DNA from: Mitsuaria sp. 7
GTDB taxonomy: Bacteria; Pseudomonadota; Gammaproteobacteria; Burkholderiales; Burkholderiaceae_C
Direction: 5' to 3'
DNA length: 64,000 nucleotides
NCBI RefSeq assembly: GCF_001653795.1
Contig: NZ_CP011514.1
Location: 5,758,420 to 5,822,419 of the forward strand
Below the pieces are notes generated by a model that was not told the DNA's origin, made no database searches, and worked only from the letters and a program-made list of their open reading frames with translations. The translations under genes were made by a program, and so were the position numbers. Shown piece after piece: positions 5,334 through 51,903 of the stretch (positions are counted from its first letter, which is position 1; each line of letters starts with the position of its first letter).

Positions 5334-5447
5334 CGGCCTGGGCGTTGGCCGCCGATGCATGGGGCCTTGGCGGCAAGCGCCAAAACCCCACGCATCACCG
5401 TCCCCCCTCACTGTCGTCCTGCCACGGTTTTGCGACCGAAGACTGCA
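5334..5447 (-). ncRNA. Covarying structured RNA element, copy A (novel family)
   Basis: One of two related copies in the window (the other is at 51792-51903). Over the 106-base core (5342-5447) the two are 81/106 identical with no gap. On the plus strand the core folds as a long stem, 5354-5364 with 5386-5396, capped by an inner stem 5367-5372 with 5378-5383. A 4-bp hairpin CGGT/ACCG lies at 5425-5438, and CGGCC/GGCCG pairs 5334-5338 with 5347-5351. Six stem pairs are changed on both sides between the copies, and non-canonical pairs become G-U only on the minus strand, hence the strand call. It lies between convergent glk and the M13 peptidase, beyond the latter's terminator. Function unknown; a REP/ERIC-like repeat is the main alternative. 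Confidence 0.6.
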
Positions 5448-5450
5448 ATG

Positions 5451-5476
5451 AAAAACGGCCGGGGATGCCGGCCGTT
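5451..5476 (-). terminator. Rho-independent terminator of the M13 peptidase gene
   Basis: A 9-bp perfect stem, AACGGCCGG (5454-5462) with CCGGCCGTT (5468-5476), with a 5-base loop. Read on the minus strand it is followed by a run of five T (complement of 5451-5455). It lies 18 bases after the peptidase stop codon. On the plus strand there is no T run, so it mainly ends the minus-strand transcript. Confidence 0.8.
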
Positions 5477-5493
5477 CTTGGTGGGGTCAGGTC

Positions 5494-7515
5494 TTACCAG
5501 ATCCGGATGCGGTCCTCGCTGGACTTGAACATCTTGTCGCCCGGCTTGGTCTTGAAGGCCTCGTGGAAGCCATCATGGTTGACGGCAGCACCATTGGCGC
5601 GGAACTCCGGCGGGGAGTGCGGATCGATCGTCAGCAGCTGCAGCTTGCGCTCCTCACGCGCCTTCTCGCGCCACGCCTGCGACCAGCCCATGAAGAAGCG
5701 CTGCTCGCCCGTGTAGCCGTCGATCACCGGGGCCGGCTTGCCGCCCAGCGAGCGCAGGTAGGCCTTGTAGGCGATCTGCAGGCCGGACAGGTCGGCGATG
5801 TTCTCGCCCAGCGTCAGCTTGCCGTTGAGGTGCTTGCCGGCGATGGGCTCGTAGCCTTCGTACTGGGCGACCAGCCGGTTGCCGATGGCGTCGAAGGCCT
5901 TGCGGTCGTCGTCGGTCCACCAGTTGCGCAGCTTGCCGTCACCGTCGAACTGGCTGCCCTGGTCGTCGAAGCCGTGGCTGATCTCATGCCCGATCACGGC
6001 ACCGATGGCGCCGTAGTTCACCGCGTCGTCCGCCTTCGTGTTGTAGAAGGGCGGCTGAAGGATCGCGGCCGGGAAGACGATCTCGTTGAGCGTCGGGTTG
6101 TAGTACGCATTGACCGTCTGCGGCGTCAGCAGCCACTCGCGGCGATCGACCGGCTTGCTGGCCTTGGCGGCCTGGCGCTTCCATTCGAAGATCGATGCGC
6201 GCAGGTTGTTGCCCACCGGGTCGCCGGCCTTCACGGTCAGCGCAGCGTAGTCGCGCCAGACGTCCGGGTAGCCGATCTTCACCATGTACTTCGACAGCTT
6301 GTCCTGCGCCTGCGCCTTGGTCGCCGGCGTCATCCAGCTCAGCTTGTCGATCGACTCCTTGTACGAGGCCAGCAGGTTGTTGACCAGCTCCGCCATCCGC
6401 GCCTTGTCCGCCGCGGGGAAGTAGCGGGTGACATAGACCTCGCCGACGGCTTCGCCCAGCGCGCCGTTGACGTTGCCCACGGCCTGCTGCCAGCGCGGCA
6501 GCTGGCTCTTCGCGCCGGTCAGCGCCGCGCCGTGGAAGGCGAAGTGCGCGTCGCGGTAGACCTTGGGCAGGGTCGAGGCATTGGCGTCGATCGCGCGGAA
6601 GGTCAGGTAGAGCTTGAGGTCGTCCAGCGGCGCCTCGCCCAGGATCTTCGCCGCGCCGGTCAGGTAGCTTGGCTGCGAGGCCGACAGCTTGTCCAGGCCC
6701 GGCAGAGACGCCGCGGTGAAGAAGGCGTTCCAGTCGAAGCCCGGCGCCTTCTGCGCCAGCTCGGCCGGCGTCATCGGGTTGTAGGTCTTCTGCGGATCGC
6801 GCAGCTCGACCTTGTCCCATTGCACCTGCGCCAGACGTTCCTCGAGCGCCAGCACGCGCTGCGCGCTGCCGGCCGGATCGGCGATGCCCGCGGCCTTGGC
6901 CAGCTTCTGCAGGTAGTCGACATAGGCGCCGCGCGCCTTGCCCAGGCGCTCGTCGTCCTTCTTCAGGTAATAGTCGCGGTCCGGCAGACCCAGGCCGCCC
7001 TGCCAGGTCTGCAGGCGGTTGATGGTGGGGTCCTGGTAGTCGGCCTCGATGCCCAGCGGCACCGGCAGGTCGACGACGCCGGTCTGCGCGCCCAGCCAGG
7101 TCGCGAGCTGTTCGCGCGTCTGGATGGCGGTGATGCTGTCCAGCAGCGGCTTGACCGGCGCGAGGCCGGCCTTGTCGATCGCCGCGGTGTTCATGTAGGC
7201 GGCGTAGTAGTCGCCGATCTTCTGCTCGACGGTGCCGGCCTTGGCCTTCTTCTTCGAGAGGTCCTCGATGATCGAACGCGCGCGCTTGTCCGAGAGGTCC
7301 GCCAGTTGATGGAAGGCACCGTAGGAGGACTTGTCCGCGGGGATCTCGGTGGTCGAGAGCCAGTGGCCGTTGGCGGCGCGGAAGAGGTCGTCCTGCGGGC
7401 GGACGGTCTTGTCGTAGCCCTTGAGGTCCAGGCCCGATTGCGGCGGTGCCGCCATCGCGAAGCCGCCCAGCTGCATCAGCAGGGCGAGGGTGGTGAGGCG
7501 GAGGGCATTCTTCAT
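5494..7515 (-). CDS. M13 family zinc metallopeptidase (PepO/neprilysin-like)
   Basis: Secreted or periplasmic endopeptidase of the neprilysin family (673 aa). A signal peptide is visible (MKNALRLTTLALL...AMA). The zinc site is H510-E511-I-S-H514, with the third ligand E571 in GENIADLSG. NAYYNPTLNEIVFPAAILQPPFY is the conserved substrate-binding stretch before it, and the C-terminus ends in RIRIW as in bacterial homologues. Length fits the family (about 670-700 aa). It stands alone on the minus strand with its own terminator. It should cleave short peptides outside the cytoplasm; the native substrate is unknown. Confidence 0.93.
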   Translation of the reverse strand: MKNALRLTTLALLMQLGGFAMAAPPQSGLDLKGYDKTVRPQDDLFRAANGHWLSTTEIPADKSSYGAFHQLADLSDKRARSIIEDLSKKKAKAGTVEQKIGDYYAAYMNTAAIDKAGLAPVKPLLDSITAIQTREQLATWLGAQTGVVDLPVPLGIEADYQDPTINRLQTWQGGLGLPDRDYYLKKDDERLGKARGAYVDYLQKLAKAAGIADPAGSAQRVLALEERLAQVQWDKVELRDPQKTYNPMTPAELAQKAPGFDWNAFFTAASLPGLDKLSASQPSYLTGAAKILGEAPLDDLKLYLTFRAIDANASTLPKVYRDAHFAFHGAALTGAKSQLPRWQQAVGNVNGALGEAVGEVYVTRYFPAADKARMAELVNNLLASYKESIDKLSWMTPATKAQAQDKLSKYMVKIGYPDVWRDYAALTVKAGDPVGNNLRASIFEWKRQAAKASKPVDRREWLLTPQTVNAYYNPTLNEIVFPAAILQPPFYNTKADDAVNYGAIGAVIGHEISHGFDDQGSQFDGDGKLRNWWTDDDRKAFDAIGNRLVAQYEGYEPIAGKHLNGKLTLGENIADLSGLQIAYKAYLRSLGGKPAPVIDGYTGEQRFFMGWSQAWREKAREERKLQLLTIDPHSPPEFRANGAAVNHDGFHEAFKTKPGDKMFKSSEDRIRIW

Positions 7516-7650
7516 CGCAACGAACTCTTGAGCGCGGGCCGGGCCCGACGAGGCCGCCAGCCTATGCCAGAAGACAGCCCCATGACAAAAGGCATGAGGC
7601 CGCCTGTGGTGCCCGTCGCACCGGGACTTTCCAGCTTGTCGGGAGGCGCA

Positions 7651-8655
7651 TCAAGTGGCTGGGCAGCGCCCGCCGGTACCCGCCAGCGCTGCGGCCTTTA
7701 CCTCGGCTTTACCGGTGGGGCCGTTTCCCGTCGTGGTGGTTCCCGTGCCTCGCGGTGCCGATGCCGGCGATCGCGTGCTCAGCGTGAGCGCCGCGATGAC
7801 GAGCGCCGCGCCTATCCATTCCTGCATGGCCGGATGCTGACCCAGCGCGACGCTCATCAGCAGCGCCGAGACCGGCACGCCGTTCAGGAACAGGGTCCCG
7901 CGCGAGGCGCCCAGCTGCCGTACGCCGAAGTTGAAGGCCACCACCGCGGCCACCGTGGGGACCGCCGCGATGTAGATCAGATGCGGCGCGACGGTCGTCA
8001 CGTCCTGCCAGGCGGGCGCGGCGATCCAGCCGCCGGCCGTCGCGACGAGCGCGAACGCCACCTGCCACGGCAGTGCGGCGATGGCGGTCAGGCCGGTGTA
8101 TTCGAGCGGGCTGAGGTCCGGCACCTTCGCCGCTCCCCGCGTGTAGAGCACCCAGCCGACCGTGCCCAGCAGCGTCAGCGCGTCGCCCAGCAGCATGTGC
8201 GGCGGACCGTCGGTGCGTCCCAGCACGCCGGAGACGAGGATGACGCCGCTCAGCGCCAGCACGGCCGCACCGGCGACGCCCAGTCCCGGGCGCTGGCCGT
8301 CGAGCAGCCAGCGCAGCAGGAGGGTCGTCATCGGCATCGTGGCCATGAGCACCGCGCCGTGCGAGGGCAGCGAGAGCTTCAGCCCTTCCAGCACGAGGAT
8401 GCCGAAGAAGCCGTAGCCCAGCACGCCGTAGCGCGTCAGCGTGCCCCAGTGGGCGCGGAGCTTGGCCCAGGGCCGCTCGCCGAAGAAGACGACCAGCAGC
8501 GTCATGCCGATGCCCGCGAGCAGGTAGCGCACCGCCGTGAACCAGACGGGATCGAGCCGGCTCAGCACCGGCTTGCCGACGAGGAACAGGCTGCCCCACG
8601 AGACCGCCGCGAACAGCATCGCGACGGTGGCGGCATAGGGATTGGAGAGGCTCAT
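7651..8655 (-). CDS. EamA/DMT family transporter
   Basis: Inner-membrane protein of 334 aa with about ten hydrophobic segments arranged as two EamA repeats, characteristic of the drug/metabolite transporter superfamily. These usually export amino acids or other small metabolites; the substrate here is unknown. The start at 8655 has AAGGG 6 bases upstream; the frame stays open to 8760, but the added residues look like non-membrane filler. It is divergent from a LysR regulator that starts at 8794, the usual arrangement when the regulator controls the exporter. Confidence 0.85.
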   Translation of the reverse strand: MSLSNPYAATVAMLFAAVSWGSLFLVGKPVLSRLDPVWFTAVRYLLAGIGMTLLVVFFGERPWAKLRAHWGTLTRYGVLGYGFFGILVLEGLKLSLPSHGAVLMATMPMTTLLLRWLLDGQRPGLGVAGAAVLALSGVILVSGVLGRTDGPPHMLLGDALTLLGTVGWVLYTRGAAKVPDLSPLEYTGLTAIAALPWQVAFALVATAGGWIAAPAWQDVTTVAPHLIYIAAVPTVAAVVAFNFGVRQLGASRGTLFLNGVPVSALLMSVALGQHPAMQEWIGAALVIAALTLSTRSPASAPRGTGTTTTGNGPTGKAEVKAAALAGTGGRCPAT

Positions 8656-8793
8656 GGCGCCCTTCGCTTTCGCAAGACTTCGATGGGAAGGAAGTCTGGG
8701 CGACGCTTCGCGCGGGGTCCATGCGCATCTTTGGAACACGCGTTCCGGGAATGTGAACAACGGTCCCGCGGCGGCTTGTCAGAATGCGGACCC
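8656..8793. promoter_or_regulatory. Divergent control region between EamA exporter and LysR gene
   Basis: This 138-bp region holds two clear dyads: AGACTTC (8675-8681) with GAAGTCT (8691-8697), 9 bases apart, and GGAAC (8733-8737) with GTTCC (8742-8746). LysR proteins bind dyads of this kind between their own gene and a divergent target. Which one is the operator is an inference. No confident -10/-35 pair was found. Confidence 0.4.
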
Positions 8794-9672
8794 ATGGAGC
8801 TGTACCAGCTGAAGAGCTTTCTGGCCGTCGTGGCCGAACGCAACCTGACCCGCGCCGCGGAGAAGGTGTTCACGTCCGTGCCCGCCGTCAGCGCGCAGAT
8901 CAAGGCGCTGGAGGAGGAACTCGGCGTCCAGCTGTTCGAGCGCAGCTCGCGCGGCATGACGCTGACGTCCGCCGGCGAGAAACTCGCCGAAGAAGCCCGC
9001 CGGACGCTGGACGCGGCGCAGCGCTTGCGGCACGCGGCCGCACAGATCCGCGGCGACGTGCAGGGCGTGCTCCGCATGAGCACCGTCAGCGATCCGATCT
9101 CGCTGCGCCTGGGCGACGTGCTGGTCAAGCTGGCGGAGCGGCATCCCGGCATCGGCCTGCAGCTGATGCAGCGCCTGTCGCTGCAGAGCGTGCAGGCGCT
9201 GCGCCGGGGCGAAGTGGATTGCGCCTACGTGCTCCACGACAACGAGGCGGCGGAAGGGCTCGTCGTCAATCGTCTGCGACGGATGGAGCTCGCCATCGCG
9301 GTGCCGCGCCGCTTCGCCGACCGCGAGTGGCCGGTCTCGCGGGACGCGCTGCTGTCGCTGCCCTGGATCGGCACACCGGTGGTCTGCGGGCTGCGCGCCG
9401 CGGCCGAACGGCTCTTCCAGAGTGCAGGCCGGGAACCGCCACACAGCCTGATGGCAGAGACCGAGTCCGCCGTGCGCGGCATGGTCGCGAGCGGCCTCGG
9501 GGCCGCGATTCTCCGGCTCGATCAGGCGCAGGCGGCCGTCGAGGCCGGCGAGCTCCGCATCTGGCCGCACTGGCAGGACGAGACCTGGCTGTGCTGGCTC
9601 CAGAAGGAGGGGCCCGAGGAGCATGCATTGACCGCCGTGCGCGAGTTGGTCGAGGAAGTCTGGCGGGACTGA
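8794..9672 (+). CDS. LysR family transcriptional regulator
   Basis: DNA-binding regulator of 292 aa. The N-terminal winged helix-turn-helix is textbook LysR: MELYQLKSFLAVVAERNLTRAAE, then SVPAVSAQIKALEEELGVQLFER. The rest is a periplasmic-binding-protein-like effector domain. The ATG at 8794 is the natural start since the MELYQLKSF N-terminus is typical. It is divergent from the EamA transporter and probably controls it and itself in response to an effector that cannot be deduced. Confidence 0.93.
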   Translation: MELYQLKSFLAVVAERNLTRAAEKVFTSVPAVSAQIKALEEELGVQLFERSSRGMTLTSAGEKLAEEARRTLDAAQRLRHAAAQIRGDVQGVLRMSTVSDPISLRLGDVLVKLAERHPGIGLQLMQRLSLQSVQALRRGEVDCAYVLHDNEAAEGLVVNRLRRMELAIAVPRRFADREWPVSRDALLSLPWIGTPVVCGLRAAAERLFQSAGREPPHSLMAETESAVRGMVASGLGAAILRLDQAQAAVEAGELRIWPHWQDETWLCWLQKEGPEEHALTAVRELVEEVWRD

Positions 9673-9705
9673 AGGGCGCGCCGCTTCCGGAGCTTCTTCT
9701 TTCGA

Positions 9706-9717
9706 CCGACCGGTCGG
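9706..9717. promoter_or_regulatory. TetR-type operator-like palindrome
   Basis: CCGACCGGTCGG is a perfect 12-bp palindrome, extended by flanking GA on the left and G on the right. Sequences built on GACCGACCGGTC are common operators of TetR-family repressors of fatty-acid and acyl-CoA genes. It lies 38 bases before the GTG start of the crotonase gene, where it could block transcription. No TetR gene is in the window. Confidence 0.45.
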
Positions 9718-9754
9718 GCTGCGATACTCCGTCGATCACAACGGAGACTGCATC

Positions 9755-10564
9755 GTGGAGACCCTGCAGATAACGACCGACGCTCGCGGCGTGACCCGCG
9801 TGATGATGAACCGGCCCGAGGTGTTCAACGCCTTCGACGAGGCCATGATCGCGGACCTCGATGCCGCTTTCGCGCGCCTCGGCCAGGATCCGGCCGTGCG
9901 GATCGTCGTGCTGGAAGGCGCCGGCAAGGCCTTCAGCGCCGGCGCCGATCTCCAATGGATGAAGCGCGCGTCCGAAGCGACGCAGGAATGGAATGTCGAG
10001 GACGCGCGGCGCTTTGCCGGCATGCTGGACCGCATCGCCCGCTGCCCGAAACCGACGATCGCCAAGGTCCACGGCGTGGCGCTGGGCGGCGGCGTCGGGC
10101 TGACGCTCGCCTGTGACATCGCGGTTGCCGCGGTCGGCGCGCAGTTCGCGGTCAGCGAGGCGCGCTTCGGCATCCTGCCGTCGGTGATCGGACCCTACGT
10201 GATCAACGCCGTCGGCCCGCGCGAGGCGCGCCGGCTCGCGTTGACCGCGAGCCGCATTCCTGCCGCCGAAGCCCTGAGGATCGGCATGCTGCATGAGGTC
10301 GTGGAAAGCGACGCGGCGGGCGGGCTCGATGGCGCTGTCGAACGCTGGATCGCGGAACTGCTACTGAACGGCCCTTCGGCGCAGGCGGAGATCAAAACCT
10401 TGTTCTCCCGACTCGAGGTGGGCCCGGTGAGCGCCGAGGTGCGCGAACTGACAGCACAGACCATCGCCCGCGTGCGCATGGGCGCCGAGGCGAAGGAGGG
10501 CTTCGCCGCGTTCCTCGCCAAGCGACCCGCCGCCTGGGTGCCGAAGAAGGACGCCTCGGACTGA
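9755..10564 (+). CDS. Enoyl-CoA hydratase/isomerase family protein, LiuC/AtuE-like
   Basis: Crotonase-fold enzyme of 269 aa. The oxyanion-hole segments SAGADLQWMKRA and HGVALGGGVGL are present, and E135 in SEARFGILPS occupies one catalytic position. The first catalytic Glu of classical enoyl-CoA hydratases is replaced by Gly (GGGVGL), a pattern I associate with methylglutaconyl-CoA hydratase LiuC and terpenoid-pathway AtuE. So the likely reaction is hydration of an unsaturated branched acyl-CoA. Start is GTG with GGAG about 9 bases upstream. It is followed by a 3-hydroxyacyl-CoA dehydrogenase, which supports a beta-oxidation-type pathway. Confidence 0.8.
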   Translation: METLQITTDARGVTRVMMNRPEVFNAFDEAMIADLDAAFARLGQDPAVRIVVLEGAGKAFSAGADLQWMKRASEATQEWNVEDARRFAGMLDRIARCPKPTIAKVHGVALGGGVGLTLACDIAVAAVGAQFAVSEARFGILPSVIGPYVINAVGPREARRLALTASRIPAAEALRIGMLHEVVESDAAGGLDGAVERWIAELLLNGPSAQAEIKTLFSRLEVGPVSAEVRELTAQTIARVRMGAEAKEGFAAFLAKRPAAWVPKKDASD

Positions 10565-10666
10565 ATCAGCACGGGGCGACATGAGACTGCATGAAGCGGG
10601 TCGGCACGCGGAGCGTCGCCGAACTGGATTCGAAGCAAGACACGAAGAGAAGATCAGGAGACTGCA

Positions 10667-12190
10667 ATGACGGAATCGAAGGGATCCTGGCGCGTCGCGA
10701 CGGCCGAGGCCGAGCACGCGACGGTGGCAGTGATAGGCGCCGGCGTGATGGGCGCGGGCATCGCGCAGGTGGCGGCGCAGGCCGGACACCCGGTCCAGTT
10801 GATGGACCTGCGCGAAGGCGCCGCCGCGGCGGCGATCGCGCAGATCGGAAAGGCGCTCGATGGACTGGTGACGAAGGGCCGCATGGAGGCGGCCGAGCGC
10901 GAGGCGGTGATGGGGCGGCTCGCCCCTGCCGCCGCGACGGCGGAACTGAAGGACGCGGCGCTCGTGATCGAGGTGATCGTCGAGAAGCTCGAACCGAAGC
11001 AGGCGCTGCTTCGGGAGCTCGACGCGCTGCTGCCGCCCGACGCGCTGATCGCGTCCAACACCTCGTCGATCAGCATCACCGCGCTGGCCAACGGGATGAC
11101 GACGCCCCGCCGTCTGGTGGGCATGCACTTCTTCAATCCGGTGCCGCTGATGAAGCTCGTCGAGGTCGTCTGCGGCGCGGAGACGGCGCCGTCTGCCGCA
11201 TCGGCGGTCGAACAGCTGTCACGCCGCTGGGGAAAGACGCCAGTGCGCGCGAAGTCAACGCCAGGGTTCATCGTGAACCGCATCGCGCGCCCGTATTACG
11301 CCGAGACGCTGGCCTTGCTCCAGGAGCAGGCCGGCTCACACGCGCAATTGGACCGCGCGCTGCGCAGCGCCGGCTTCCGCATGGGGCCTTGCGAGTTGAT
11401 GGACCTGATCGGGCACGACACCAATTACCTGGTGACGCAGTCGGTGTTCGAGGCCAACTTCGGCGACAAGCGCTATCAGCCGTCGCTGGTGCAGAAGGCG
11501 CTGGTCGACGGCGGCCGGCTGGGACGCAAGTCCGGCAAGGGCTTCTACAACGGCATACCCGCCGTGACGCCGCCGGTCGCCCCCGTCGACGAGGATGTCG
11601 GCGCGGTGACGCTGGCGGGGCAGGGCGTGCTGGTCGAACGGCTGGGCGACTGGATGATGACGCGCGGCGTCGCGTTCGAGCGGGATCCGGCGGCGGACTG
11701 GCAGGGCGTGGCGATGGAAGGTCTGCAGTTGCACCTCACCCTGGGACGTTGCGCCGCTCAACTGGCGCATGAGCGCCACCAGCCCGGTCTGGCAGTGATC
11801 GACTGGCCGTTGTCGCCGGATCGCATCGACGGCCTGGCCATCGCCTTTGCGCCGCGCGTCGATGCCGAGTCGCGGGCACGTGCGGAGGCGCTGCTGCGTC
11901 ATTTCGGCTGGGAGCCGCTGGTGCTGCGCGACGTGCCTGGACTCGCGGTCGCGCGGACGATCGCGATGCTCGTCAACGAAGGCGCGGATGCGGTCTGGCA
12001 AGGCGTCTGCGACGAGGCCGGCGCCGACACGGCGATGAAGCTCGGCGTCAACTATCCGGCGGGTCCTTTCGAATGGCTGGCGTTGCTCGGCGCGACGAGG
12101 GTCGTCGACGTGCTGGACGGACTCTTCGATGCGTATCGCAGCGAGCGCTACCGCGTCAGCCCGCTGCTTCGGCAGCGTCTGTGGGCCTGA
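10667..12190 (+). CDS. paaH: 3-hydroxyacyl-CoA dehydrogenase, PaaH type
   Basis: NAD-dependent dehydrogenase of 507 aa that oxidises a 3-hydroxyacyl-CoA to the 3-oxoacyl-CoA. The Rossmann motif GAGVMG is at residues 24-29. SNTSSISITALA and GMHFFNPVPLMKLVEVV carry the substrate and catalytic His region, and there is a second 3HCDH C-terminal domain after residue 400. The length and the double C-terminal domain match PaaH of phenylacetate breakdown (3-hydroxyadipyl-CoA dehydrogenase). The thiolase at 13713-14912 would cleave its product, which supports this name. A general beta-oxidation dehydrogenase remains possible. Confidence 0.82.
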   Translation: MTESKGSWRVATAEAEHATVAVIGAGVMGAGIAQVAAQAGHPVQLMDLREGAAAAAIAQIGKALDGLVTKGRMEAAEREAVMGRLAPAAATAELKDAALVIEVIVEKLEPKQALLRELDALLPPDALIASNTSSISITALANGMTTPRRLVGMHFFNPVPLMKLVEVVCGAETAPSAASAVEQLSRRWGKTPVRAKSTPGFIVNRIARPYYAETLALLQEQAGSHAQLDRALRSAGFRMGPCELMDLIGHDTNYLVTQSVFEANFGDKRYQPSLVQKALVDGGRLGRKSGKGFYNGIPAVTPPVAPVDEDVGAVTLAGQGVLVERLGDWMMTRGVAFERDPAADWQGVAMEGLQLHLTLGRCAAQLAHERHQPGLAVIDWPLSPDRIDGLAIAFAPRVDAESRARAEALLRHFGWEPLVLRDVPGLAVARTIAMLVNEGADAVWQGVCDEAGADTAMKLGVNYPAGPFEWLALLGATRVVDVLDGLFDAYRSERYRVSPLLRQRLWA

Positions 12191-12237
12191 ACGAGGCGTT
12201 CCACCCAAGCGGACAGGGACACCCGGCCCACCCATGA

Positions 12238-12263
12238 AAAAAGCGACCCTCGGGTCGCTTTTT
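12238..12263. terminator. Bidirectional terminator between paaH and the IclR gene
   Basis: AAAAAGCGACC (12238-12248) pairs with GGTCGCTTTTT (12253-12263) around a CTCG loop. The stem is flanked by A on the left and T on the right, so it can end both the plus-strand paaH transcript and the minus-strand regulator transcript. Confidence 0.9.
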
Positions 12264-12295
12264 CGCTGGCGCTTCTGGATCCGGCGTCTGAAGCC

Positions 12296-13132
12296 TCAGA
12301 GCAGCATGCGCAGGTGCGCTTGCGCCTGCAGCAGCGGCGGCAGGCAGTGCTCGACCATCTGTTCCATGCTCATGCGGGTCGCGTGAACGCTGATGGCCAT
12401 CGCGGCGACGGTGTCGCCCTTGTAGTTCTTCAGCGGCACCGCCACCGAGCGCAGGCCTTGCTCCAGTTCCTGATCGATCAGCGCGTAGCCTTGGGCACGG
12501 GCGCGGGCGATCTCGATGCGCAGGCGTTCCGGATGCGTGATCGTGTGCGGCGTCAGCGCGGTCAGTTCCTGCCGGGCGATGAAGGCGTCGACTTCCGCCT
12601 GGGGCTGCGCCGCCAGCAGCACGCGGCCGTTGCCGGTGCAGTAGGCCGGCACGCGGGTGCCCGGCTGCAGCGTCGGGGAGACCACGCGGCCCGCGCTCGT
12701 CGCCGAGATGCAGATCACGTCGTTGCCGTCCAGCACGCCAGCCGACGAGGCTTCCTTCATCGCATACGCCAGCTTGTGCAGCTCGGGTTCGATGATGCGC
12801 GGCAGGCGGGCGGAGTGCATGTAGCTCTGGCCCAGGCGGAGCACCTTCGGGGTCAGCGCAAACATCTTGCGGTCCTGCGACACGAAGCCCAGGTGGGTCA
12901 GCGTCAGCAGGTAGCGGCGGGCTGCCGCGCGGGTCAGGCCGGTACGGCCGGCGACTTCGCTGATGGTCAGTCTGGGGCGTTCCTGATCGAAGGCTTCGAT
13001 CACGGCCAGGCCCTTTTCCAGGCCGGCGACCAGGTCGCGCTTCAGCGGACCGGTCCGGACTTCAGCGTCAGGGGCGGGGATGACCGCTTGGATCGCGGTC
13101 AATTCATCATCGTGGGCTCGTGCAGCGGACAT
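12296..13132 (-). CDS. IclR family regulator, PcaR/PobR-like
   Basis: Transcription regulator of 278 aa. The N-terminal winged helix includes LAVIEAFDQERPRLTISEVAGRTGLTRAAARRYLLTL and is followed by a C-terminal effector-binding domain with GTRVPAYCTGNGRVLLA. The pattern best matches the PcaR/PcaU/PobR branch that controls aromatic acid catabolism. This fits the adjacent 3-oxoadipyl-CoA thiolase. The start at 13132 is a compromise: no clear ribosome-binding site precedes it, and the frame stays open to 13258. The upstream 126 bases look non-coding in style and contain a dyad (13224-13237), so the shorter form is preferred. Confidence 0.85.
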   Translation of the reverse strand: MSAARAHDDELTAIQAVIPAPDAEVRTGPLKRDLVAGLEKGLAVIEAFDQERPRLTISEVAGRTGLTRAAARRYLLTLTHLGFVSQDRKMFALTPKVLRLGQSYMHSARLPRIIEPELHKLAYAMKEASSAGVLDGNDVICISATSAGRVVSPTLQPGTRVPAYCTGNGRVLLAAQPQAEVDAFIARQELTALTPHTITHPERLRIEIARARAQGYALIDQELEQGLRSVAVPLKNYKGDTVAAMAISVHATRMSMEQMVEHCLPPLLQAQAHLRMLL

Positions 13133-13682
13133 GGCGGAGAGGGAGGACGTGCGTTTGACGCCCAAATCTGCTGGGCGTAAGCAGGTGATGTCCACGACTA
13201 TAGGGACAACCCTGTGAAGAATGTTTGCCAGGGCAAATGTTTTATCCGCAAATCGCACGCTTGTGCATCAAATTGGTGCATTTTCTGCGCAGAACGCCCC
13301 ACCTCCTGGGTGCAAGAGGTGTTCGTGGGCGTTCAGCGGGAAAAAGGTGCGCGAAACCGCGGTCGGTGGTCGCTAAGCAGGCGGTCAATAGTCAGACATC
13401 ATGCTTGTCACCGCATACCCTACATATATGAGCGGTATGCGCCATCAAACGAAGTCAGTATCACATGCGATGTGCGATTGGCGCCTACGTGGTCCTACGT
13501 GCGCCCATGACTATTTCTTTGGCGCCCCCAACCTTTGGCTATAGGTCGCGCCAGAGCGGCAACGGTGGATGGTGGCGGGCGGCGTTCATCCGCTGCACCA
13601 AAAAGAGGTCAGACAACCTGGGCGATTGCTGGAATCCTCAAATGTCCTCCAATGATCAGGTTCCACCATGAACGAGGGACAA
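13133..13682. promoter_or_regulatory. 550-bp non-coding region with two dyads, between the IclR gene and pcaF
   Basis: No convincing gene is seen here. Nearest the IclR gene lies TTTGCC (13224-13229) with GGCAAA (13232-13237), and a direct repeat of GTGCAT about 13266-13284; both suit autoregulation. Further out is a perfect 8-bp dyad, CGCATACC (13412-13419) and GGTATGCG (13434-13441), with an AT-rich spacer. The tract around 13390-13480 is clearly more AT-rich than its surroundings. Confidence 0.5.
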
Positions 13683-13704
13683 GGAGCCGACCTGTGCCGG
13701 CTCC
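13683..13704 (-). terminator. Hairpin after pcaF
   Basis: GGAGCCG (13683-13689) pairs with CGGCTCC (13698-13704), nine bases past the pcaF stop codon. Read on the minus strand it is followed by TTGTCCC, only weakly T-rich, so termination may be partial. Confidence 0.6.
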
Positions 13705-13712
13705 CGAGAAGG

Positions 13713-14912: not shown

Positions 14913-15112
14913 GAAAAGTCTCCTGTATCTTTATGAGAATGCGAGGTTCGAGGGATCATAGGGGGGCGCAGGAAAAACCTGTGACAAGTTGCACGGTCCC
15001 TCCAGGATCATGCGCAACGCCGTACGGTTGACGCGCTTTTGATTTAAGTTGCGCCCCTCCGCAGCCGAAGCTGCTGACGAGGGCGTCCGAACCGGGACGC
15101 GGAACTACAAGA

Positions 15113-18573: not shown

Positions 18574-18709
18574 GTCGCACCGCGTCGCCGGCGCATCGGG
18601 ATCGACCCGGGGACCGGACCGGGCGGGGGGTCGGGAGACCTCTCCACTGCCGGTCGCGCGAGGGCGGCACAATGCGTCGATGGCCGCCGTCGACGGCCGG
18701 GAGACAAGC

Positions 18710-29118: not shown

Positions 29119-30326
<1,208 letters not shown>

Positions 30327-35540: not shown

Positions 35541-35550
35541 TCCGGCCGGC

Positions 35551-37993: not shown

Positions 37994-38030
37994 GTGCTTC
38001 TGATCGCCCGAGCGATCGATGAACACACGG

Positions 38031-38051
38031 ACGGCCCTTCGGGGCCGTTTT
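38031..38051 (+). terminator. lipA terminator
   Basis: ACGGCCC (38031-38037) pairs with GGGCCGT (38042-38048) around TTCG, followed by T. It starts 38 bases after the lipA stop. The T run is short. Confidence 0.75.
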
Positions 38052-38157
38052 GCATGGCCACTCGAGCCGGTGCATGACTTTCGTTGAAGCGGGGAGTCGG
38101 CCCCTACAAACGGCGCTTCTTCATCCGGCCTCGCGCGCATCGCGTCCTCCGCTTCCC

Positions 38158-41625: not shown

Positions 41626-41628
41626 GTC

Positions 41629-44600: not shown

Positions 44601-44814
44601 CGAGTGCGCGCTCCAGCGGCGTCGCGACGGTCGCGGCCATGGTGTCCGGGCTCGCGCCCGGCAGCGAGGCGGACACCGAGATCGTCGGGAAGTCCACCTG
44701 CGGCAGCGGCGCGATCGGCAGGAAGTGATAGCCGAGCATCCCCGCCAGCGCGATGCCGATGGTGATCAGCGTCGTCGCGACCGGCCTCGCGATGAACGGC
44801 GCGGAAATGTTCAT
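41629..44814 (-). CDS. mdtC: RND multidrug efflux permease, MdtC-like
   Basis: Inner-membrane proton-drug antiporter of 1061 aa with twelve membrane segments and two large periplasmic loops. The start [19 protein letters not shown], the proton-relay Asp pair in [14 protein letters not shown] and the [25 protein letters not shown] block are typical. The order after an MdtB-like gene makes MdtC the best name. The start overlaps the preceding stop by four bases (ATGA). MdtB and MdtC form a mixed trimer in E. coli; this is assumed here. Confidence 0.94.
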
Positions 44815-47800
44815 CGCAGGTCTCCGCCCGGTCCGATCGGACCGATGGGCCCGGCAGGATCGGCGATCTGCGGTGCGTCGGGACCCCGGCGTTCGTCGGC
44901 GGCCCGCGTCTCGCGCTTCGCGCCGCGGCGCTCGCGCCAGCGCTGCGCCATGCGCGCGAAGCCCAGGTAGATCACCGGCGTCGTGAACAGGGTCAGCAGC
45001 TGGCTCACGATCAGGCCGCCGACCATGGTCACGCCCAGCGGATGCCGCAGCTCATGACCGACGCCGGTGCCCAGCATCAGCGGCAGTGCGCCCAACAGCG
45101 CGGCCATCGTCGTCATCAGGATCGGACGGAAGCGCAGCAGCGAGGCCTGGTGGATCGCGGCGCGCGGTTCGAGGCCCTGTTCGCGCTCGGCCTCGAGCGC
45201 GAAGTCGATCATCATGATCGCGTTCTTCTTGACGATGCCGATCAGCAGAACGATGCCGATGATCGCGATGATCCCCAGATCCAGCCCGCCCAGCAGCAGC
45301 GCCAGCAGTGCGCCCACGCCGGCCGACGGCAGCGTCGACAGGATGGTCACCGGATGGATGTAGCTCTCGTAGAGCACGCCCAGCACGATGTACATCGTGA
45401 CCACCGCCGCCAGGATCAGGAACAGCGTGCTGGACAGCGAATTGCTGAAGGCTTCCGCCGCGCCTTGGAAACTGGTCTCGACGCTGATCGGCAGGTCGAG
45501 ATTGGCCTGCTCGGCCTTGATCGCCTTCACCGCGTCGCCGAGTGCGACACCGGGCGGCAGGTTGAACGAGATCGTGGCCGCCGGAAACTGCGCGACGTGA
45601 TTGATCGCCAGCGCCGCGGGACGTTCGACGATCTGCGCGACCGAGTTCAGCGGCACCTGCACCGAGGTCGTCGACGTCGTGCCGGTGGCGCTGGTGGTGG
45701 ACGTGCTGCCGGGCACGTACAGCCCTTCGAGCGCGCGCGGTCCGCTGCGGAACTCCGGCGCCGCTTCAAGCACGACGCGGTACTGGCTGGACTGCGTGTA
45801 GATCGTCGAGATCAGCCGCTGGCCGAAGGCGTTGTAGAGCGCGGTGTCGATCGCCGCGATCGTGACGCCGAGCCGGCCCGCCGCCTCGCGGTCGATCTGG
45901 ACCCAGGCCTGCAGACCCTGGTTCTGAAGGTCGCTGGCGACGTCGGCCAGCTGCGGCAGCGCCTTGAGCCGCTCCAGCAACTGGTCGTTGGCCTTCTGCA
46001 GGTCGGCCGTGTCCGGCGAGCTCAGCAGGAACTGGTACTGCGTCTTGGACACGCGGTCCTCGATCGTCAGGTCCTGCACCGGCTGCATGTAGGCGGTGAT
46101 GCCAGGCACCTGCCGGTTCGCGTCGCCCAGCCGCGCGATGATCTCCGTCGCCGACGCGTGGCGCGTCGCGAACGGCTTCAGCGTGATCTGCATGCGGCCG
46201 GTGTTCAGCGACGCGTTGGCACCGTCGACGCCGATGAAGGACGCGATGTGGTCGACGTCGGGATCCTTCAGGAAGACCTCGGCCAGCTTCTGCTGACGCT
46301 CGCTCATCGCGTCGAACGAGGTGCTCTGCGTCGCCTCGGTGATCACCTGCAGCAGGCCGGTGTCCTGCACCGGGAAGAAGCCCTTGGGCACGACGACATA
46401 CAGCAGCGCGGTCAGCACCAGCGTCCCGAAGAAGCCCAGCAGCGTCAGCACCGGACGGTCCAGCACCCAGTCCAGGCCGCGGCCGTAGGCCTGGATGACG
46501 GCCTCGAACTTCTCGCCGAACCAGGTGCCGAGTCGCGAGTGCTTCTGCTCGGACTCGGGCTTCAGCAGCCTCGCGCTCATCATCGGCGTCAGCGTCAGCG
46601 AGACGAAGGCCGAGATCAGGATGGAGACCGCCAGCGTGATCGCGAACTCATGGAACAGCCGACCGACGACGTCGCCCATGAACAGCAGCGGGATCAGCAC
46701 CGCGATCAGCGAGACGGTCAGCGAGATGATGGTGAAGCCGATCTGCCTGGAGCCCTTGATGGCCGCCTCCATCGGCGAGTCGCCTTCCTCGACGTAGCGG
46801 GCGATGTTCTCGATCATCACGATCGCATCGTCCACGACGAAGCCGGTCGAGATGGTCAGCGCCATCAGCGTCAGGTTGTTGATCGAGAAGCCGGCGAGGT
46901 ACATCACGCCGAAGGTGCCGATCAGCGACAGCGGCACCGCGACGCTGGGGATCAGCGTGGCGCTGCCGCTGCGCAGGAACAGGAAGATCACCGCGACGAC
47001 CAGCACGATCGCGAGCAGCAGCTCGATCTCGGTGTCGTCGACCGAGGCGCGGATGGTCGTCGTGCGGTCGGACAGGATCTGCACGTCGACGGAGGCGGGC
47101 AGCGTGCCCTGCAGCTTGGGCAGCAGCGCCTTCACGCGGTCGACGGTCTGGATCACGTTGGCGCCGGGCTGGCGCTGAACGTTCAGGATCACGCCCGGCG
47201 TCGTGTCGGCCCAGGCCGCCAGGCGCAGGTTCTCGGCGTCGTCGACGATCACCGCGACGTCGTTCAGCCGCAGCGGGTTGCCGTTCTTCCAGGCAATGAT
47301 CAGGTTCTGGTACTCGGCGGCGGAGCGCAACTGGTCGTTGGCGTCGATCGTCGACGCGCGTTGCGAGCCGTCGAAGCTGCCCTTGGCCTGGTTGACGTTG
47401 GCCGAGGCGATGGCGCTGCGCACGTCGTCCAGCGACAGCCCCAGCGCCGCGAGCGCGCGCGGATTCGCCTGGATGCGCACGGCGGGACGGCGCCCGCCGG
47501 CGATGCTGACGAGACCCACGCCGTCGACCTGCGACAGCTTGGGCGCGAGGCGGTTCTCGACCAGGTCATGGACCTTGATCACCGGCAGCGACGGCGAGGT
47601 CACCGCGATCGTCATCACCGGCGCGTCGGCCGGATTGACCTTGCTGTAGACCGGCGGCATCGGCAGGTCGCTGGGCAGCAGGTTGCTGCCGGCGTTGATC
47701 GCGGCCTGCACCTCCTGCTCGGCGACGTCCAGCGACAGGCCCAGCGAGAAGCGCAGCGTGATCACCGACGCGCCGCCCGAGCTCGACGAGGTCATCTGGC

Positions 47801-48038
47801 TCAGGCCCGGCATCTGGCCGAACTGGCGCTCCAGCGGCGCGGTGACGGTGGTGGAGATGACGTCCGGGCTCGCGCCCGGATAGAGCGTCGTGACCTGGAT
47901 GGTCGGGTAGTCGACCTCCGGCAGCGCCGACAGCGGCAGCAGCCGGTAGGCCAGCAGGCCGGCCAGCAGGATGGCCAGCATCAGCAGCGAGGTCGCGACC
48001 GGCCGCTCGATGAAGGGACGGGACGGATTCATGGCCAT
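44811..48038 (-). CDS. mdtB: RND multidrug efflux permease, MdtB-like
   Basis: RND permease of 1075 aa. [24 protein letters not shown] and [24 protein letters not shown] match MdtB. The proton relay appears in [21 protein letters not shown]. It lies between the adaptor (13 bases upstream) and the MdtC-like gene (overlap of four). Two near-identical permease types side by side with one adaptor is the characteristic mdtABC layout; in E. coli the pump expels bile salts and novobiocin. The local substrate is not known. Confidence 0.94.
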
Positions 48039-48051
48039 GGCCGGGCCTCGA

Positions 48052-49650
48052 TCAGTTGCCGCCGCCGGAGGCCGCCTGCCGGTTGGCGCGTTCGGCGCGG
48101 CGCTCGGCGATCCAGGCTTCCCGCTCGGCGGGACTCATCTTCATGACCTTCTCTTGGACATCGGGCGGCAGACGGTCCAGCCAGGCGGGACGGTCGCCGC
48201 CGGCTTGCGTGGCGTCGGCCGGACCGCCGGAGCCGCTCGCGGTGCCTTGCGGCGCCGATGCGCCGGAGGCGCGATGACCTTCGCCCCACGCGCCGGAGGC
48301 CGCGCCGCCCGGTGCGCTTGCGCTACGGCCGCGGCGCGGCGCGGCGTTGGCGCCGGCGCGCTGCTTCGGATCGGCGGCGATGACCTCGACCTTCGCGCCT
48401 TCGCGCAGCCGGTCGACGCCGTCGATGACGACGCGATCGCCCGGCTCGACCTTGCCGTCCACGGCCATCCAGTCGCCGTCGACCGCGCCGGTCTGCACGA
48501 CCCGCGTCGACACGCTGTTGTCCGCGCCGACGACATAGACGTAGAAGCCCTGCGCGCCGCGCAGCACCGCGGCGGCCGGCACGGCCACGCGGTTCGGCTC
48601 GGTCGCGAGCTGCAGCTTCACGCTCACCGACTGGTTGGGGTAGAGCGCGTCGTCGTCGTTCGGGAACAGCGCCTTGAGCTTGATCGTGTCGGTGGTGATG
48701 TCGATCGCGTTGTCGGCGGTCGCGAGCTTGCCGGTGGCCAGACGCGTCTTGCCGTCGCGGCTCCACGCCTCGACCGTCATCGCGGTCTTGCCTTTCAGTC
48801 CGGCGGTCACCTGCGGCAGCAGCGCCGACGGCACCGCGAAGGTCAGCGCGATCGGGCGCGTCTGCGTGATGCTGACGATGCCGTTGGCGTCGCCGGTCTG
48901 CACGACGTTGCCGATGTCCGCCTGCTTCAGGCCGACGCGGCCCGAGATCGGCGCCTGCACGCGGCTGTAGGTGACCTGCAGCCGTGCGCTGTCGACAGCG
49001 GCCTGGTCGGCCTTGACCGTGCCGATGAGCTGGTTGACCGTCGCCTGCTGCGTGTCGACCTGCTGACGCGCGATGGCGTCCTTGGCGAGCAGATCCTGGT
49101 AGCGCGTCAGGTCGATGCGGGCGTTGTCCAGCGTGGCCTTGTCGCGGGCCAACTGGCCTTCCGCCTGGCCGAGCGCGGCCTGGAACGCGCGCGGATCGAT
49201 CTGCGCCAGCGTCTGGCCGGCCTTGACCTGCTGGCCTTCGGTGAAGTGGATCTGCTGCAGCACGCCGGTGACCTGCGCGCGCACGACGGCGGTGTTGGAC
49301 GCGCTGATGGTGCCGATCGCGGCGGCGGTGTGGCGGATGTCCTGCAGCCGCGCGGGCATCACCGACACCGGCTGCACGCGGTTGGCGGCGAAGCGGCCGC
49401 CACGACCCGGGGCGCCACCGCCGGGACCACCGGCACCGCCGGGGCCGCTCGCGGCGGAGGCGGGTCCGCCGGCTGCGCCGTCGGCACCGCGGCCCTTCCA
49501 CCACCACCAGCCGCCGGCCGCGATGGCCAGCACCACGATGCCGAGGATCCAGGGTGTCGCCCGGCCTCGTTGCCGACGGTGCGTCGCCGCGTTGGAGAGG
49601 GGGGCGATGACAGTCCCCGGCACGCCGGGCAGGTTCTTGTTCGTGTTCAT
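48052..49650 (-). CDS. mdtA: RND membrane-fusion protein, MdtA-like
   Basis: Periplasmic adaptor of 532 aa joining the pump to its outer-membrane channel. A single N-terminal membrane anchor is followed by a Gly/Ala-rich linker (about 55-88). The lipoyl half-motifs [20 protein letters not shown] and [17 protein letters not shown] flank a coiled-coil hairpin, then beta-barrel domains. The C-terminus after about residue 430 is a long low-complexity, charged extension ([11 protein letters not shown]) not found in E. coli MdtA (about 415 aa). It is the first gene of the pump operon. No regulator is adjacent. Confidence 0.93.
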
Positions 49651-49783
49651 TCGGGCGGGCGATGCTTGCTATGTCGCTACCCTAGTATCTGGCGACAGCA
49701 GGCTGGTGTACCCGAGGAAAAGAATCGCAAAGCGTCGGGGCTAACCCGCGTAGTCGAGGGGTTTCCGAGGCTGTCCGGCCATG

Positions 49784-49807
49784 AAAAATGCCGCTCGGAA
49801 GCGGTAT
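49784..49807 (-). terminator. Hairpin upstream of mdtA-tlpA junction
   Basis: ATGCCGC (49788-49794) pairs with GCGGTAT (49801-49807), with one G-T pair. On the minus strand the hairpin is followed by four to five T. It lies 22 bases before the end of the thioredoxin gene's coordinates, just past its stop on the minus strand, so it terminates that gene. Confidence 0.7.
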
Positions 49808-49829
49808 GGATCGGTGGGGCGCGGAGGGC

Positions 49830-50339
49830 TCAGCTTTCGGCGAGCAGCTTCTCGATCGTGCCGTGCAGCGCCGCGAAGTCGGGCTCGCCGACGAAGCGCT
49901 TGACGATCTCGCCGCGCTTGTTGATCAGGAAGGTCGTCGGCGTGAGCTGGACCTTGCCGAAGCTGCGGGCGATCTCGCCCGTGCTGTCCATCGCGACGCC
50001 GAAGGGCAGATTGCGGGTCTCGGCGTAGTTGGCGACGTAGGCCGGCGGGTCGTAGCTCATGGCGACGGCCAGCGTGTCGAACCCCTTGTCCTTGTACTTC
50101 TGGTGCGTCGCGATGACCTGCGGCATTTCCTTGACGCAGGTCGTGCAGGAGGTCGCCCAGAAATTGACGAGCATCACCTTGCCGGGCCACGCCTGCACGG
50201 AGGCGTGCTTGGAGCCGTCGAGCAGCACGTAGTTCACCTGCGGGGCAGGCTCGGGCTTCAAGCCCTCATACGCGAGGCCGGCGCCGACGCCAACGGCGGC
50301 AACCAGCAGCAGGAGTCCAGACCAGCGAGGCAGCTTCAT
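49830..50339 (-). CDS. TlpA-type thiol-disulfide oxidoreductase
   Basis: Thioredoxin-fold protein of 169 aa anchored to the periplasmic side by an N-terminal hydrophobic segment (LLLLVAAVGVGAGLAY). The redox motif is C65-T-T-C68 in FWATSCTTCVKEMP. TPTTFLINKRGEIV with its cis-Pro is the second family landmark. Members reduce apocytochromes or other periplasmic thiols; the partner is not shown by the neighbours. It has its own terminator. Confidence 0.9.
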   Translation of the reverse strand: MKLPRWSGLLLLVAAVGVGAGLAYEGLKPEPAPQVNYVLLDGSKHASVQAWPGKVMLVNFWATSCTTCVKEMPQVIATHQKYKDKGFDTLAVAMSYDPPAYVANYAETRNLPFGVAMDSTGEIARSFGKVQLTPTTFLINKRGEIVKRFVGEPDFAALHGTIEKLLAES

Positions 50340-50368
50340 GGGGCGGAAGTGTATGCCCGAGGCTGGAG

Positions 50369-50388
50369 GCCCACCACTTTGGTGGGGC
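50369..50388. repeat. Hairpin between tlpA-like gene and pseudokinase gene
   Basis: GCCCACC (50369-50375) pairs with GGTGGGGC (50381-50388) around ACTTT. It lies in the 100-bp gap between the two minus-strand genes. No T run follows on either strand, so its role is open. Confidence 0.5.
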
Positions 50389-50439
50389 TTAAGTCAGGAG
50401 CCTGTCAGGGCGTCGGTGCCGGGTCGGCGCAGGGGCGCT

Positions 50440-51609
50440 TCAGAGCGCCTTGGACAGCTCGAACAGCAGCACCGACGGCAGCGCGTCCTGCAGGTTCTGG
50501 CGGGAGATCCTCGCCAGGTGATCCGGCGTGGCCGTGGACAGTTGCGTCTGCTGGTCGCCGTCCAGCACCTCGATGAAGCTGAAGCTGGGCACCTCGCCGG
50601 TGATGTCGGCGCGCAGGCGGTCGAAGTCGGCGTCGCGCATCGACTGCTCGAAGGCGATGCCGTGCGGCAGGCCTTCCTCGCAGAACTGCAGCGCTTCATC
50701 CATCGAGCCCACGGCGTCGATGATCAGTCCCATGTGGCGCACGGCGTTCTGGATCTCCTGACGCACCTCGCGGCGCGGCGAGACGATCAGCAGGTGGCAG
50801 CCCGCCAGCGGCTTGGAGTTGTGCGAGGGCGTCGGATCGTCGAGCTCGGGCCGCTCCGGCCGTGCGGGCGGTGCCAGTTCTTGCCGGACGGCGGGCTCGT
50901 CGCCGGCCACATGCGGGAACTCCAGCGTCAGCATGGTGATGCCGGCCTCGTCCTCGCGCAGCGGCAGCGCGCCGAGGGTCAGCGCGGTCTGCTCGATCAG
51001 GCGCCAGTGCAAGGAGTTCAGCGATTCCGGCGGCGCGTTGATCGCCGCCGACGGGGCGCTGCCCAGGTCCAGCGAGCGATGGGCGAAGCGGCACATCAGC
51101 CGGGCCTTGGCCGGCCACGGGGTCAGGTCCAGCCGCATCTCCAGCGAGGAATGCGTGTTGGCGAGCGCCCAGTCCATCACCGCGTTCAGCAGCGAGAACA
51201 GCAGCGAGGCGTCGGTGATCACCTCAATCGGCTGCAGCAGCTGCCGGATCTGGATGCCGCGGGCCTGCGTCTCGCGGCTGCGTTGCGTGAGCACGCCCCT
51301 CAGCACCTGCGTCAGCGGCACGCGCTCGCGCGACAGCCGCAGTCGTCCGGACGCCAGCCGCGCCAGCTGCTGGCTCACCATGCCGGCCTCGCGCGCCTGC
51401 GCCACCGAGTCGCGCAGCGCCCGCAGGCCCTGGCGGTCGATCTGGCCGGTGCTGATCAAGGTGTGGATCCGCTCCAGCGCCGCGCTCAGCGGGCCGGCGA
51501 TCTCCGCGCCGAGCTGCTGGACGATGTCGCCCCATTGCGAATCGCTCGGGGGCTGCGCCATGTCATTGGCGGCCAACGGCGCGGCAATGGAAGGGGGCGG
51601 GCGGGACAT
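50440..51609 (-). CDS. Degenerate histidine kinase-receiver protein
   Basis: Protein of 389 aa with the outline of a hybrid sensor kinase but without its catalytic residues. A DHp-like helix pair (about 28-95) reads LGAEIAGPLSAAL, with A35 where the phospho-accepting His should be. An ATPase-like part (about 95-233) has W147 in place of the N-box Asn and no recognisable G boxes. The receiver-like part (270-389) has SPRR (277-280) instead of the acidic pair and E321 instead of the phospho-accepting Asp. It probably works as a protein-binding scaffold. The start at 51609 has GAGAG upstream; the frame is open to 51816. Confidence 0.72.
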   Translation of the reverse strand: MSRPPPSIAAPLAANDMAQPPSDSQWGDIVQQLGAEIAGPLSAALERIHTLISTGQIDRQGLRALRDSVAQAREAGMVSQQLARLASGRLRLSRERVPLTQVLRGVLTQRSRETQARGIQIRQLLQPIEVITDASLLFSLLNAVMDWALANTHSSLEMRLDLTPWPAKARLMCRFAHRSLDLGSAPSAAINAPPESLNSLHWRLIEQTALTLGALPLREDEAGITMLTLEFPHVAGDEPAVRQELAPPARPERPELDDPTPSHNSKPLAGCHLLIVSPRREVRQEIQNAVRHMGLIIDAVGSMDEALQFCEEGLPHGIAFEQSMRDADFDRLRADITGEVPSFSFIEVLDGDQQTQLSTATPDHLARISRQNLQDALPSVLLFELSKAL

Positions 51610-51791
51610 GCTCTCTCGTTCTTGTGAGCCTCCGGCGGCATGCCGGGGCGGGGAGGCGCCATGGTTCCGCGCAGCCCCGGGGGAGGCCATCCCGTGAGTC
51701 GGGGGCAATCGCCCCCCTGGGTGGATGGCGTGAAATGGCTCACGATTCCTCATGGAATCGGGGCGGATGGCGGACGGGCAGGGACTGCATT
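51610..51791 (-). promoter_or_regulatory. Hairpin-rich leader of the pseudokinase gene
   Basis: The 182 bases before the pseudokinase start contain GGGGGC/GCCCCC around ATTG (about 51703-51718) and GATTCC/GGAATC around the tetraloop (about 51745-51760). It follows directly on the minus strand from copy B of the structured RNA element. If transcribed together they would make a leader of about 290 nt. No gene is seen. Confidence 0.45.
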
Positions 51792-51903
51792 GGCCGAGCG
51801 TTGGCCGCCAAGTCATGAGGCCCCGGAGTCAAGCTCCGAAACCTCACGACTTGCCGTCCCCAACCACTGCCGCCCTTCGACGGTTTTGCTACCGAGGACT
51901 CCA
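51792..51903 (-). ncRNA. Covarying structured RNA element, copy B (novel family)
   Basis: Second copy of the element at 5334-5447; the aligned core is 51798-51903. The main stem pairs 51810-51820 with 51842-51852 and the inner stem 51824-51828 with 51834-51838. The CGGT/ACCG hairpin is at 51881-51894, and GGCC/GGCC pairs 51792-51795 with 51803-51806. On the minus strand it begins inside the last codons of the hydrolase gene (whose stop is at 51889-51891) and leads toward the pseudokinase gene 180 bases on. It could be a 3' element of one or a leader of the other. Confidence 0.6.

Follow-up and report, generated by a model that had tools for sequence, protein, structure and literature searches.

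A probable new family of REP-like mobile repeats with a covarying hairpin in Mitsuaria sp. 7 and its genus

Short palindromic repeats are common in bacteria, and whether RNA or single-stranded DNA is the level at which they fold is a general question. As far as the accessible parts of the respective accounts go, REP repeats are located at gene 3' ends in convergent or tandem gaps (PMC3733652), compensatory hairpin changes have been reported for REP repeats with RAYTs (PMC3116915), and IS110 members insert in REPs (PMC1525189). For the CGTC REPs, the accessible part of PMC3733652 knows no dedicated transposase. The repeat described here shares the placement and behaviour of REP repeats. It fits no known family found; it fails the size, head, unit-pairing and RAYT-link features of GTAG REPs, REPINs and CGTC REPs, and no description of it was found in the openly licensed literature.

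A preliminary description of the window, i.e., the whole stretch of 64,000 nucleotides of Mitsuaria sp. 7 analysed here, had reported two distant copies of one structured element, differing by six compensatory base-pair changes, and selection on their structure. A recount agreed with these observations. The cores 5342-5447 and 51798-51903 aligned without gaps with 81 of 106 positions identical, and all six named stem-pair changes were confirmed, comprising 12 of the 15 differences in core positions 13-56 (the remaining three were positions 26, 32 and 56). When 15 differences were scattered randomly over the 45-nt hairpin, at least six two-sided pairs arose in 112 of 200,000 draws. For the motif CGTTGGCCGCC-N(20-50)-CCGTC, the window contained two occurrences where 0.02 were expected, and for the tail motif CGGTTTTGCNACCGARGACT (three mismatches at most) two where 0.05 were expected. 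Structure and selection were both judged to have been rightly claimed; however, the weaker strand (plus) had been used and mobility had been missed. The features of both copies are collected in Table 1. Copy 1 was located between the glucokinase stop codon and a hairpin of the M13 peptidase gene that resembles a terminator. Copy 2 adjoined the 3' end of the alpha/beta hydrolase gene, and the present stop codon of this gene (51889-51891) sat inside the copy. Since, in the region 51889-51910, the hydrolase stop lies within the element and relatives without the element stop earlier, the insertion changed the end of the protein.

Table 1. Positions of the two repeat copies, their hairpins and the neighbouring genes in the window.
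Feature	Position	Strand	Remarks
Copy 1, inserted unit	5317..5444	-	ends set by the empty sites of relatives, accurate to within a few bases
Copy 1, covariance-model match	5307-5447		genome C1:5763726-5763866
P2 of copy 1, 20-bp hairpin, 5-nt loop	5353..5397	-	20/20 pairs on minus, 16/20 on plus
P1 of copy 1	5400..5443	-	arms 5438-5443 and 5400-5405, around GGTCGCAAAACC hairpin
P3 of copy 1	5342..5352	-	GCG-GCCAA-CGC on minus, from sequence
Copy 2, inserted unit	51777..51901	-	limits from relatives without the unit, good to a few bases
Copy 2, covariance-model match	51764-51903		genome C1:5810183-5810322
P2 of copy 2	51809..51853	-	20/20 pairs on minus, 16/20 on plus
P1 of copy 2	51856..51899	-	arms 51894-51899 and 51856-51861, around GGTAGCAAAACC hairpin
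P3 of copy 2	51798..51808	-	from sequence
Glucokinase gene, convergent neighbour of copy 1	4237..5316	+	PF02685, E 8.2e-93
M13 peptidase gene, runs toward copy 1 in the element's sense	5494..7515	-	PF05649, PF01431
Alpha/beta hydrolase gene, runs into copy 2	51889..52689	-	PF12697, E 1.2e-20; ORF

The repeat unit measured 125-145 bp (about 140), and the window's minus strand, which is the sense strand of the unit, gave the best fold. Three hairpins followed each other in the 5' to 3' direction: P1, with the arms GUCCUC ... GGGGAC around a small GGUNGCAAAACC hairpin and two spacer G residues before the next stem; P2, with 20 bp and a 5-nt loop; and a small P3 of GCG-GCCAA-CGC. The tail after P3 ended with GCAGGUAGGCGGUC in the better copies. 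Among the relatives, P1 was variable in length and some subfamilies had a shorter P2 stem. The hairpin of the preliminary description was retained and its strand changed: with G·U counted, the P2 of both copies formed 20/20 pairs on the minus and 16/20 on the plus strand. The RNA folding z-scores of the two copies were -4.41 and -4.78 for the minus strand compared with -1.36 and -2.80 for the plus strand. Over 73 distinct stems, the P2 cells comprised 1250 Watson-Crick pairs, 227 G·U, 3 A·C, 42 other mismatches and 11 gaps. When the three fixed wobble columns were removed, 57 G·U stood against 3 A·C (p 6e-14, for sequences that are not independent), and P2 of the 17 copies found by BLAST alone likewise had G·U and zero A·C. 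A G·T on one strand is an A·C on the other, so a DNA cruciform would show equal counts; as G·U was far above A·C, what counts is the fold of one specific single strand, either RNA or DNA. Of 90 distinct copies, 52 had perfectly paired P1 arms, where shuffled upstream sequence would give 4.4; the copies are not independent in this count because the arm letters are conserved.

Like the GTAG REPs and REPINs, the repeat consisted of dispersed palindromes in gene-end gaps with tandem clusters, compensatory changes and an IS110 insertion (PMC3733652, PMC3116915, PMC2817692 and PMC1525189, in their accessible parts), and the REP placement at gene 3' ends was found here as well. However, GTAG REPs and REPINs are palindromes of 20-40 bp with an unpaired GTAG-type head, whereas the present unit has the length given above and three hairpins, P2 alone taking 45 nt. 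The GTAG head was not located at the foot of P2, where GGACGG was found instead; GGTAG occurred within P1 and in the 3' tail of some copies. Unlike the inverted pairs of REPINs, the units in the 78 fetched loci were single or arranged head to tail on the same strand, and the short opposite-strand matches there overlapped the same hairpin. RAYT genes of REP and REPIN systems are flanked by cognate repeats, whereas the 20 Y1-transposase loci searched here had no model match at E <= 0.01, and the copy number amounted to tens rather than the hundreds of REP repeats. A likeness to the CGTC REPs was seen in CCGTC after P2 on the plus strand and in the 5-nt loop (PMC3733652, accessible part). Those repeats have an 8-9 bp stem, a 4-5 nt loop and a terminal CGTC, in contrast to the 20-bp stem and the extra P1 and P3 observed here, and their head-to-head dimers were not seen. 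ERIC, RU-1 (127 bp) and RU-2 of enterobacteria are also of similar length, intergenic and small mobile sequences of MITE-like character (PMC2759123, accessible part); judged by description alone, they differ in their taxa and from the long strand-specific hairpin with fixed wobble pairs of the present repeat.

The covariation was analysed on two alignments, of which the 90-copy one was fitted to the model and so leans to the fold, and the MAFFT alignment of 17 own-genome copies was not. RNAalifold, applied to 17 own-genome copies, predicted 30 pairs, 14 of them with two-sided changes. In the MAFFT alignment, two-sided changes were recorded for 13 of the 20 P2 pairs, and all 13 such pairs were those of P2. 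Counted on the stated P1-P2-P3 structure, 98.4% of the 493 cells paired, while shuffled alignments gave 86.0% and slid ones 43-51%. The 13 two-sided pairs comprised 58 cells, and either figure was reached in 0/500 shuffles; the covariation score was 0.421 against 0.177. One of the five measures on this alignment, further pair types, was not above the shuffles (336/500). In our own tree-based test of 90 distinct copies with 60 null alignments, the top seven column pairs across the entire alignment all belonged to P2 and exceeded all 567,180 null values, the tail-fit E being below 0.05 for six of them. None of the six P1 pairs covaried significantly in the same test. The P3 pairs were invariant in 17/17 copies and hardly varied among the 90, hence covariation is uninformative on P3. 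P1 and P3 were accordingly rejected as covarying helices, and P2 alone is proven by covariation.

When copy 2 served as the BLAST query against the own genome, 23 matches at E <= 1 were obtained, the last one doubtful, and 17 of those were used to build the covariance model R1. With R1, 22 full-length matches at E <= 2e-19 were found in the own genome, and 40 at E <= 10 when weaker or partial ones were included. Among 60 genomes, 14 had a match at E <= 0.01: these were 11 of the 16 genomes of the same genus (own genome counted) and 3 of the 44 outside it, each of the latter with one weak match (E 0.002-0.005). A relative with no match genome-wide, G004, had a copy 1 gene sequence 82% identical to that of the window, against 77% in two carriers. 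When a second model, R2, was applied to 250 genomes of the family (141 genera), the own genome alone matched at E <= 1e-4; just 12 candidates per genome were scored, and therefore weak relatives might be missed. A DNA pattern recovered 38 stretches from a species collection; apart from two MAGs (titles Rubrivivax sp. PMG_223 and Burkholderiaceae SP106), all of the records bore Roseateles or Mitsuaria as their title. Searches of plasmid and phage records were negative. Rfam gave six matches over the window, none of them at either copy, where no family reached the gathering score; the strongest of the weak hits there scored 18.9 and 18.3 bits, with cut-offs of 168 and 100, and were of a chance-level microRNA type. 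Integron attC sites, group II introns and ribozymes were also considered, as far as this Rfam scan covers them.

Several expectations of the preliminary description were borne out by these searches. The covariance-model search that it had proposed did find further copies, bringing the full-length ones of the own genome to 22, its paired changes proved to be real covariation in the larger set (17 own-genome and 90 aligned copies), and the Rfam scan agreed with its failure to recognise a known RNA family. The idea of a new RNA family held as far as a structured, covarying element is concerned. It covers only part of the case, since the unit is a mobile interspersed repeat, restricted to the genus as far as searched, located behind genes and folding on the minus strand.

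The placement of the repeat was determined with a codon-usage model that was trained on the window and applied to the 78 fetched loci (77 scored, one weakly scored). The copies were found between convergent genes at 40 loci, between tandem genes in the gene sense at 25 and against it at 8, and between divergent genes at 4. Thus, 73 of the 77 scored loci were convergent or tandem, with the copies coming after stop codons, and the gene upstream in the element's sense ran toward the element in 65 of 77. In the own genome, 15 of the 22 copies lay between convergent genes, compared with 54 of 232 sampled gaps of at least 30 bases (p 3e-5). For tandem gene pairs, the excess of the sense orientation (25 vs 8, p 0.005) was retained after shared loci had been merged by hand (17 vs 5, p 0.017). 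A replication-linked orientation was rejected: the sense strand was leading in 10/24 own-genome elements (p 0.54), with the origin and terminus placed by GC skew, which was sampled in 20 stretches of 20 kb and in the window. In 4/22 own-genome copies, the upstream side already carried a terminator-like hairpin and its T run.

At all four sites inspected, the unit was missing in at least one relative. At the copy 2 site, it was present in the own genome and in G005, whereas four relatives whose flanks could be aligned lacked it (G009, G006, G010 and G013); the remaining nine loci were too diverged to judge or had other sequence. The copy 1 site held the unit in the own genome and in G009 and an altered one in G006; it was missing in G005, G013, G002 and G004, a remnant without one stem arm was found in G010, and two further relatives had a different neighbour. 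The third site (C1:4274017) held the unit in the own genome, and G005 had 5 bases between two convergent stop codons there; the unit was also missing in G006, G010, G013, G004 and G002, with other sequence in G013 and G004. The fourth site (C1:3668019) held it in the own genome, with a clean absence in G005; it was also missing in G006, G010 and G013, and in G013 a match was located before the neighbouring paralogous gene instead. By eye, no target-site duplication was evident at the four sites, where the unit ends are known to a few bases. Head-to-tail arrays were observed in three relatives (G012, G014 and G015), with spacings of 302, 182, 288, 190 and others. The array units at L082 (G015) and L084 (G014) also carried, between the elements, another long palindrome (~73 nt).

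An IS110-type element (PF01548, E 1.2e-22) was found within the hairpin of the own-genome copy at C1:125577, and no second copy of it was found in the 16 genomes. As this insertion is known from one copy, there is nothing to say beyond that case, and IS110 was rejected as a habitual visitor of the repeat.

The Y1 transposase (RAYT, PF01797) was considered as the mobilising enzyme. It was present in 16/16 genus genomes, the 5 lacking the repeat among them, and the 20 Y1-transposase loci gave no model match at E <= 0.01 (best 0.015). RAYT was rejected as the mover on both grounds. A GGTTTTGCTNNNGAG motif, chosen by eye, was shared with the region upstream of a 279-aa RAYT, which is a weak lead. 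Upstream of the only Y1 transposase gene of the own genome (L024), AGGTTTTGCTGTTGA resembled the element tail CGGTTTTGCTACCGAGGACT, and this could be chance; L136 and L138 also carried a motif of the AGGTTTTGCTGTTGA type resembling the tail.

Sequence change at shared sites was compared for 57 copies, namely 22 of the own genome, 17 of G005 and 18 of G009 (the last two had 20 matches each in the model search, 3 and 2 of which were left out). Fourteen sites were shared among these genomes, giving 28 between-genome comparisons. P2 differed there in 103 pairs, 78 of them on two sides and 25 on one side, and 9 differences involved a non-standard (unpaired) state. With flanks as diverged as these (78-99% identity), neutral drift would be expected to break mostly one side of a pair. 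The parts of the unit were also compared by their best match in 35 cases. For the P1 region, this was the same-site copy in 27, a different copy from the same genome in 6 and a tie in 2; for the P2 stem, the numbers were 18, 14 and 3, and for the tail 21, 9 and 5. The contrast between P1 and the stem, orthologue against paralogue, gave an uncorrected p of 0.03. Some whole stems were identical in two copies of one genome and unlike the same-site copy in a relative (L027, L034). In addition to selection for pairing, these data are suggestive of an exchange of hairpins among the copies.

Sequence comparison established many dispersed copies, sites at which some related species have the complete unit and others lack it, a location directly after stop codons, a predicted three-hairpin fold on one strand, and the preservation of P2 pairing while its letters change. 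We proposed that the copies probably form a new REP-like family of non-autonomous mobile repeats, restricted to the genus as far as searched, with a single-strand fold under selection. The unit would be moved in trans by a putative enzyme reading the folded single strand, and the gaps behind genes would tolerate insertions best, as with REP repeats. Once inserted, a copy would often be co-transcribed with the upstream gene, and its transcribed hairpin could act as a 3'-end RNA structure by which the message is stabilised or read-through is limited. The pairing might be kept because it is the folded copies that multiply and replace others, or because the RNA hairpin has a use where it lies. The orientation and the kept pairing make an RNA role in 3' flanks plausible. 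The pairing kept at shared sites exceeds what a merely decaying inserted repeat would show, and this counts against the mobile-repeat reading. The negative outcome of the search for a mobilising enzyme, the lack of an evident target-site duplication and the limitation of the IS110 case to one copy likewise weigh against it.

It is possible, although we favour it less, that the fold is purely a signal in single-stranded DNA, the pairing being selected only when an IS200/IS605- or RAYT-type transposase grips the folded strand, with nothing at the RNA level. G·T is tolerated better than A·C in DNA as well. A precedent is offered by REP repeats with RAYTs and their compensatory hairpin changes (PMC3116915, accessible part), and the tail-like motif upstream of the RAYT gene is consistent with this explanation. 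However, the presence of RAYT does not track the repeat, the orientation follows genes and not replication, and long-kept pairing at shared sites would be unexpected without repeated overwriting.

A more doubtful proposal is that of a spreading 3'-end RNA device, as opposed to inert repeat DNA, whose hairpin would be kept folded at the same sites across species by pairwise replacement, with whole hairpins sometimes swapped within a genome and the rest of the unit following species descent. It is unlikely that the repeat is simply a 3'-end RNA serving the host, with copies retained since their hairpin, once transcribed, would protect the upstream message or terminate it, and with mobility incidental. 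Such a role would agree with the upstream gene pointing into the element at 65/77 scored loci, with the tandem sense orientation before and after merging and the lack of a replication link (10/24), and with the 78 two-sided P2 differences among 103, of which 9 involved an unpaired state. Yet presence differed among close relatives at 4/4 sites inspected, 4/22 own copies already had a terminator-like hairpin and T run upstream, remnants exist, and 5/16 genus genomes are without the repeat.

An explanation by mutation and not selection, in which palindromes self-correct by template switching or gene conversion and two-sided changes come free, was considered improbable. It would account for 14/35 stems versus 6/35 P1 regions being closer to a same-genome copy (p 0.03). 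However, template switching would convert wobbles to Watson-Crick pairs, whereas two U·G columns were nearly invariant (89/90 and 82/90), and G·U was found on one strand only. A chance resemblance of two terminators, for which nothing speaks except that GC-rich hairpins are common, was refuted by the copies elsewhere, the motif counts and the P2 covariation.

Two-sided changes between two copies may stem both from a mobile repeat and from exchange among copies, and not necessarily from a stand-alone RNA gene, which calls for caution with such observations. With dozens of copies, empty sites, a bias to one strand and two-by-two replacement of pairs, the family offers a direct test of where selection acts.

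Other repeats and structures were noticed during the analysis. The own-genome loci L142, L145 and L148 carried weakly matching copies that resembled a second subfamily, in which GTGGGGCCGGAATG precedes and GTGGAGAGCCCGCGCTTGGC follows the long hairpin. Another intergenic repeat of high copy number, around CCCTCTCCCGCAAGCGGGAGAGGG, was observed at L028:786-872 and at many positions of G000 and G005, the own genome giving some 20 matches at E <= 1e-20; in G013, a sequence of this type occupied a gap that holds the element in the own genome. Finally, an Rfam match to anti-hemB (RF02837) was recorded at window positions 30239-30326 (+), with 65.7 bits at a cut-off of 49.5.
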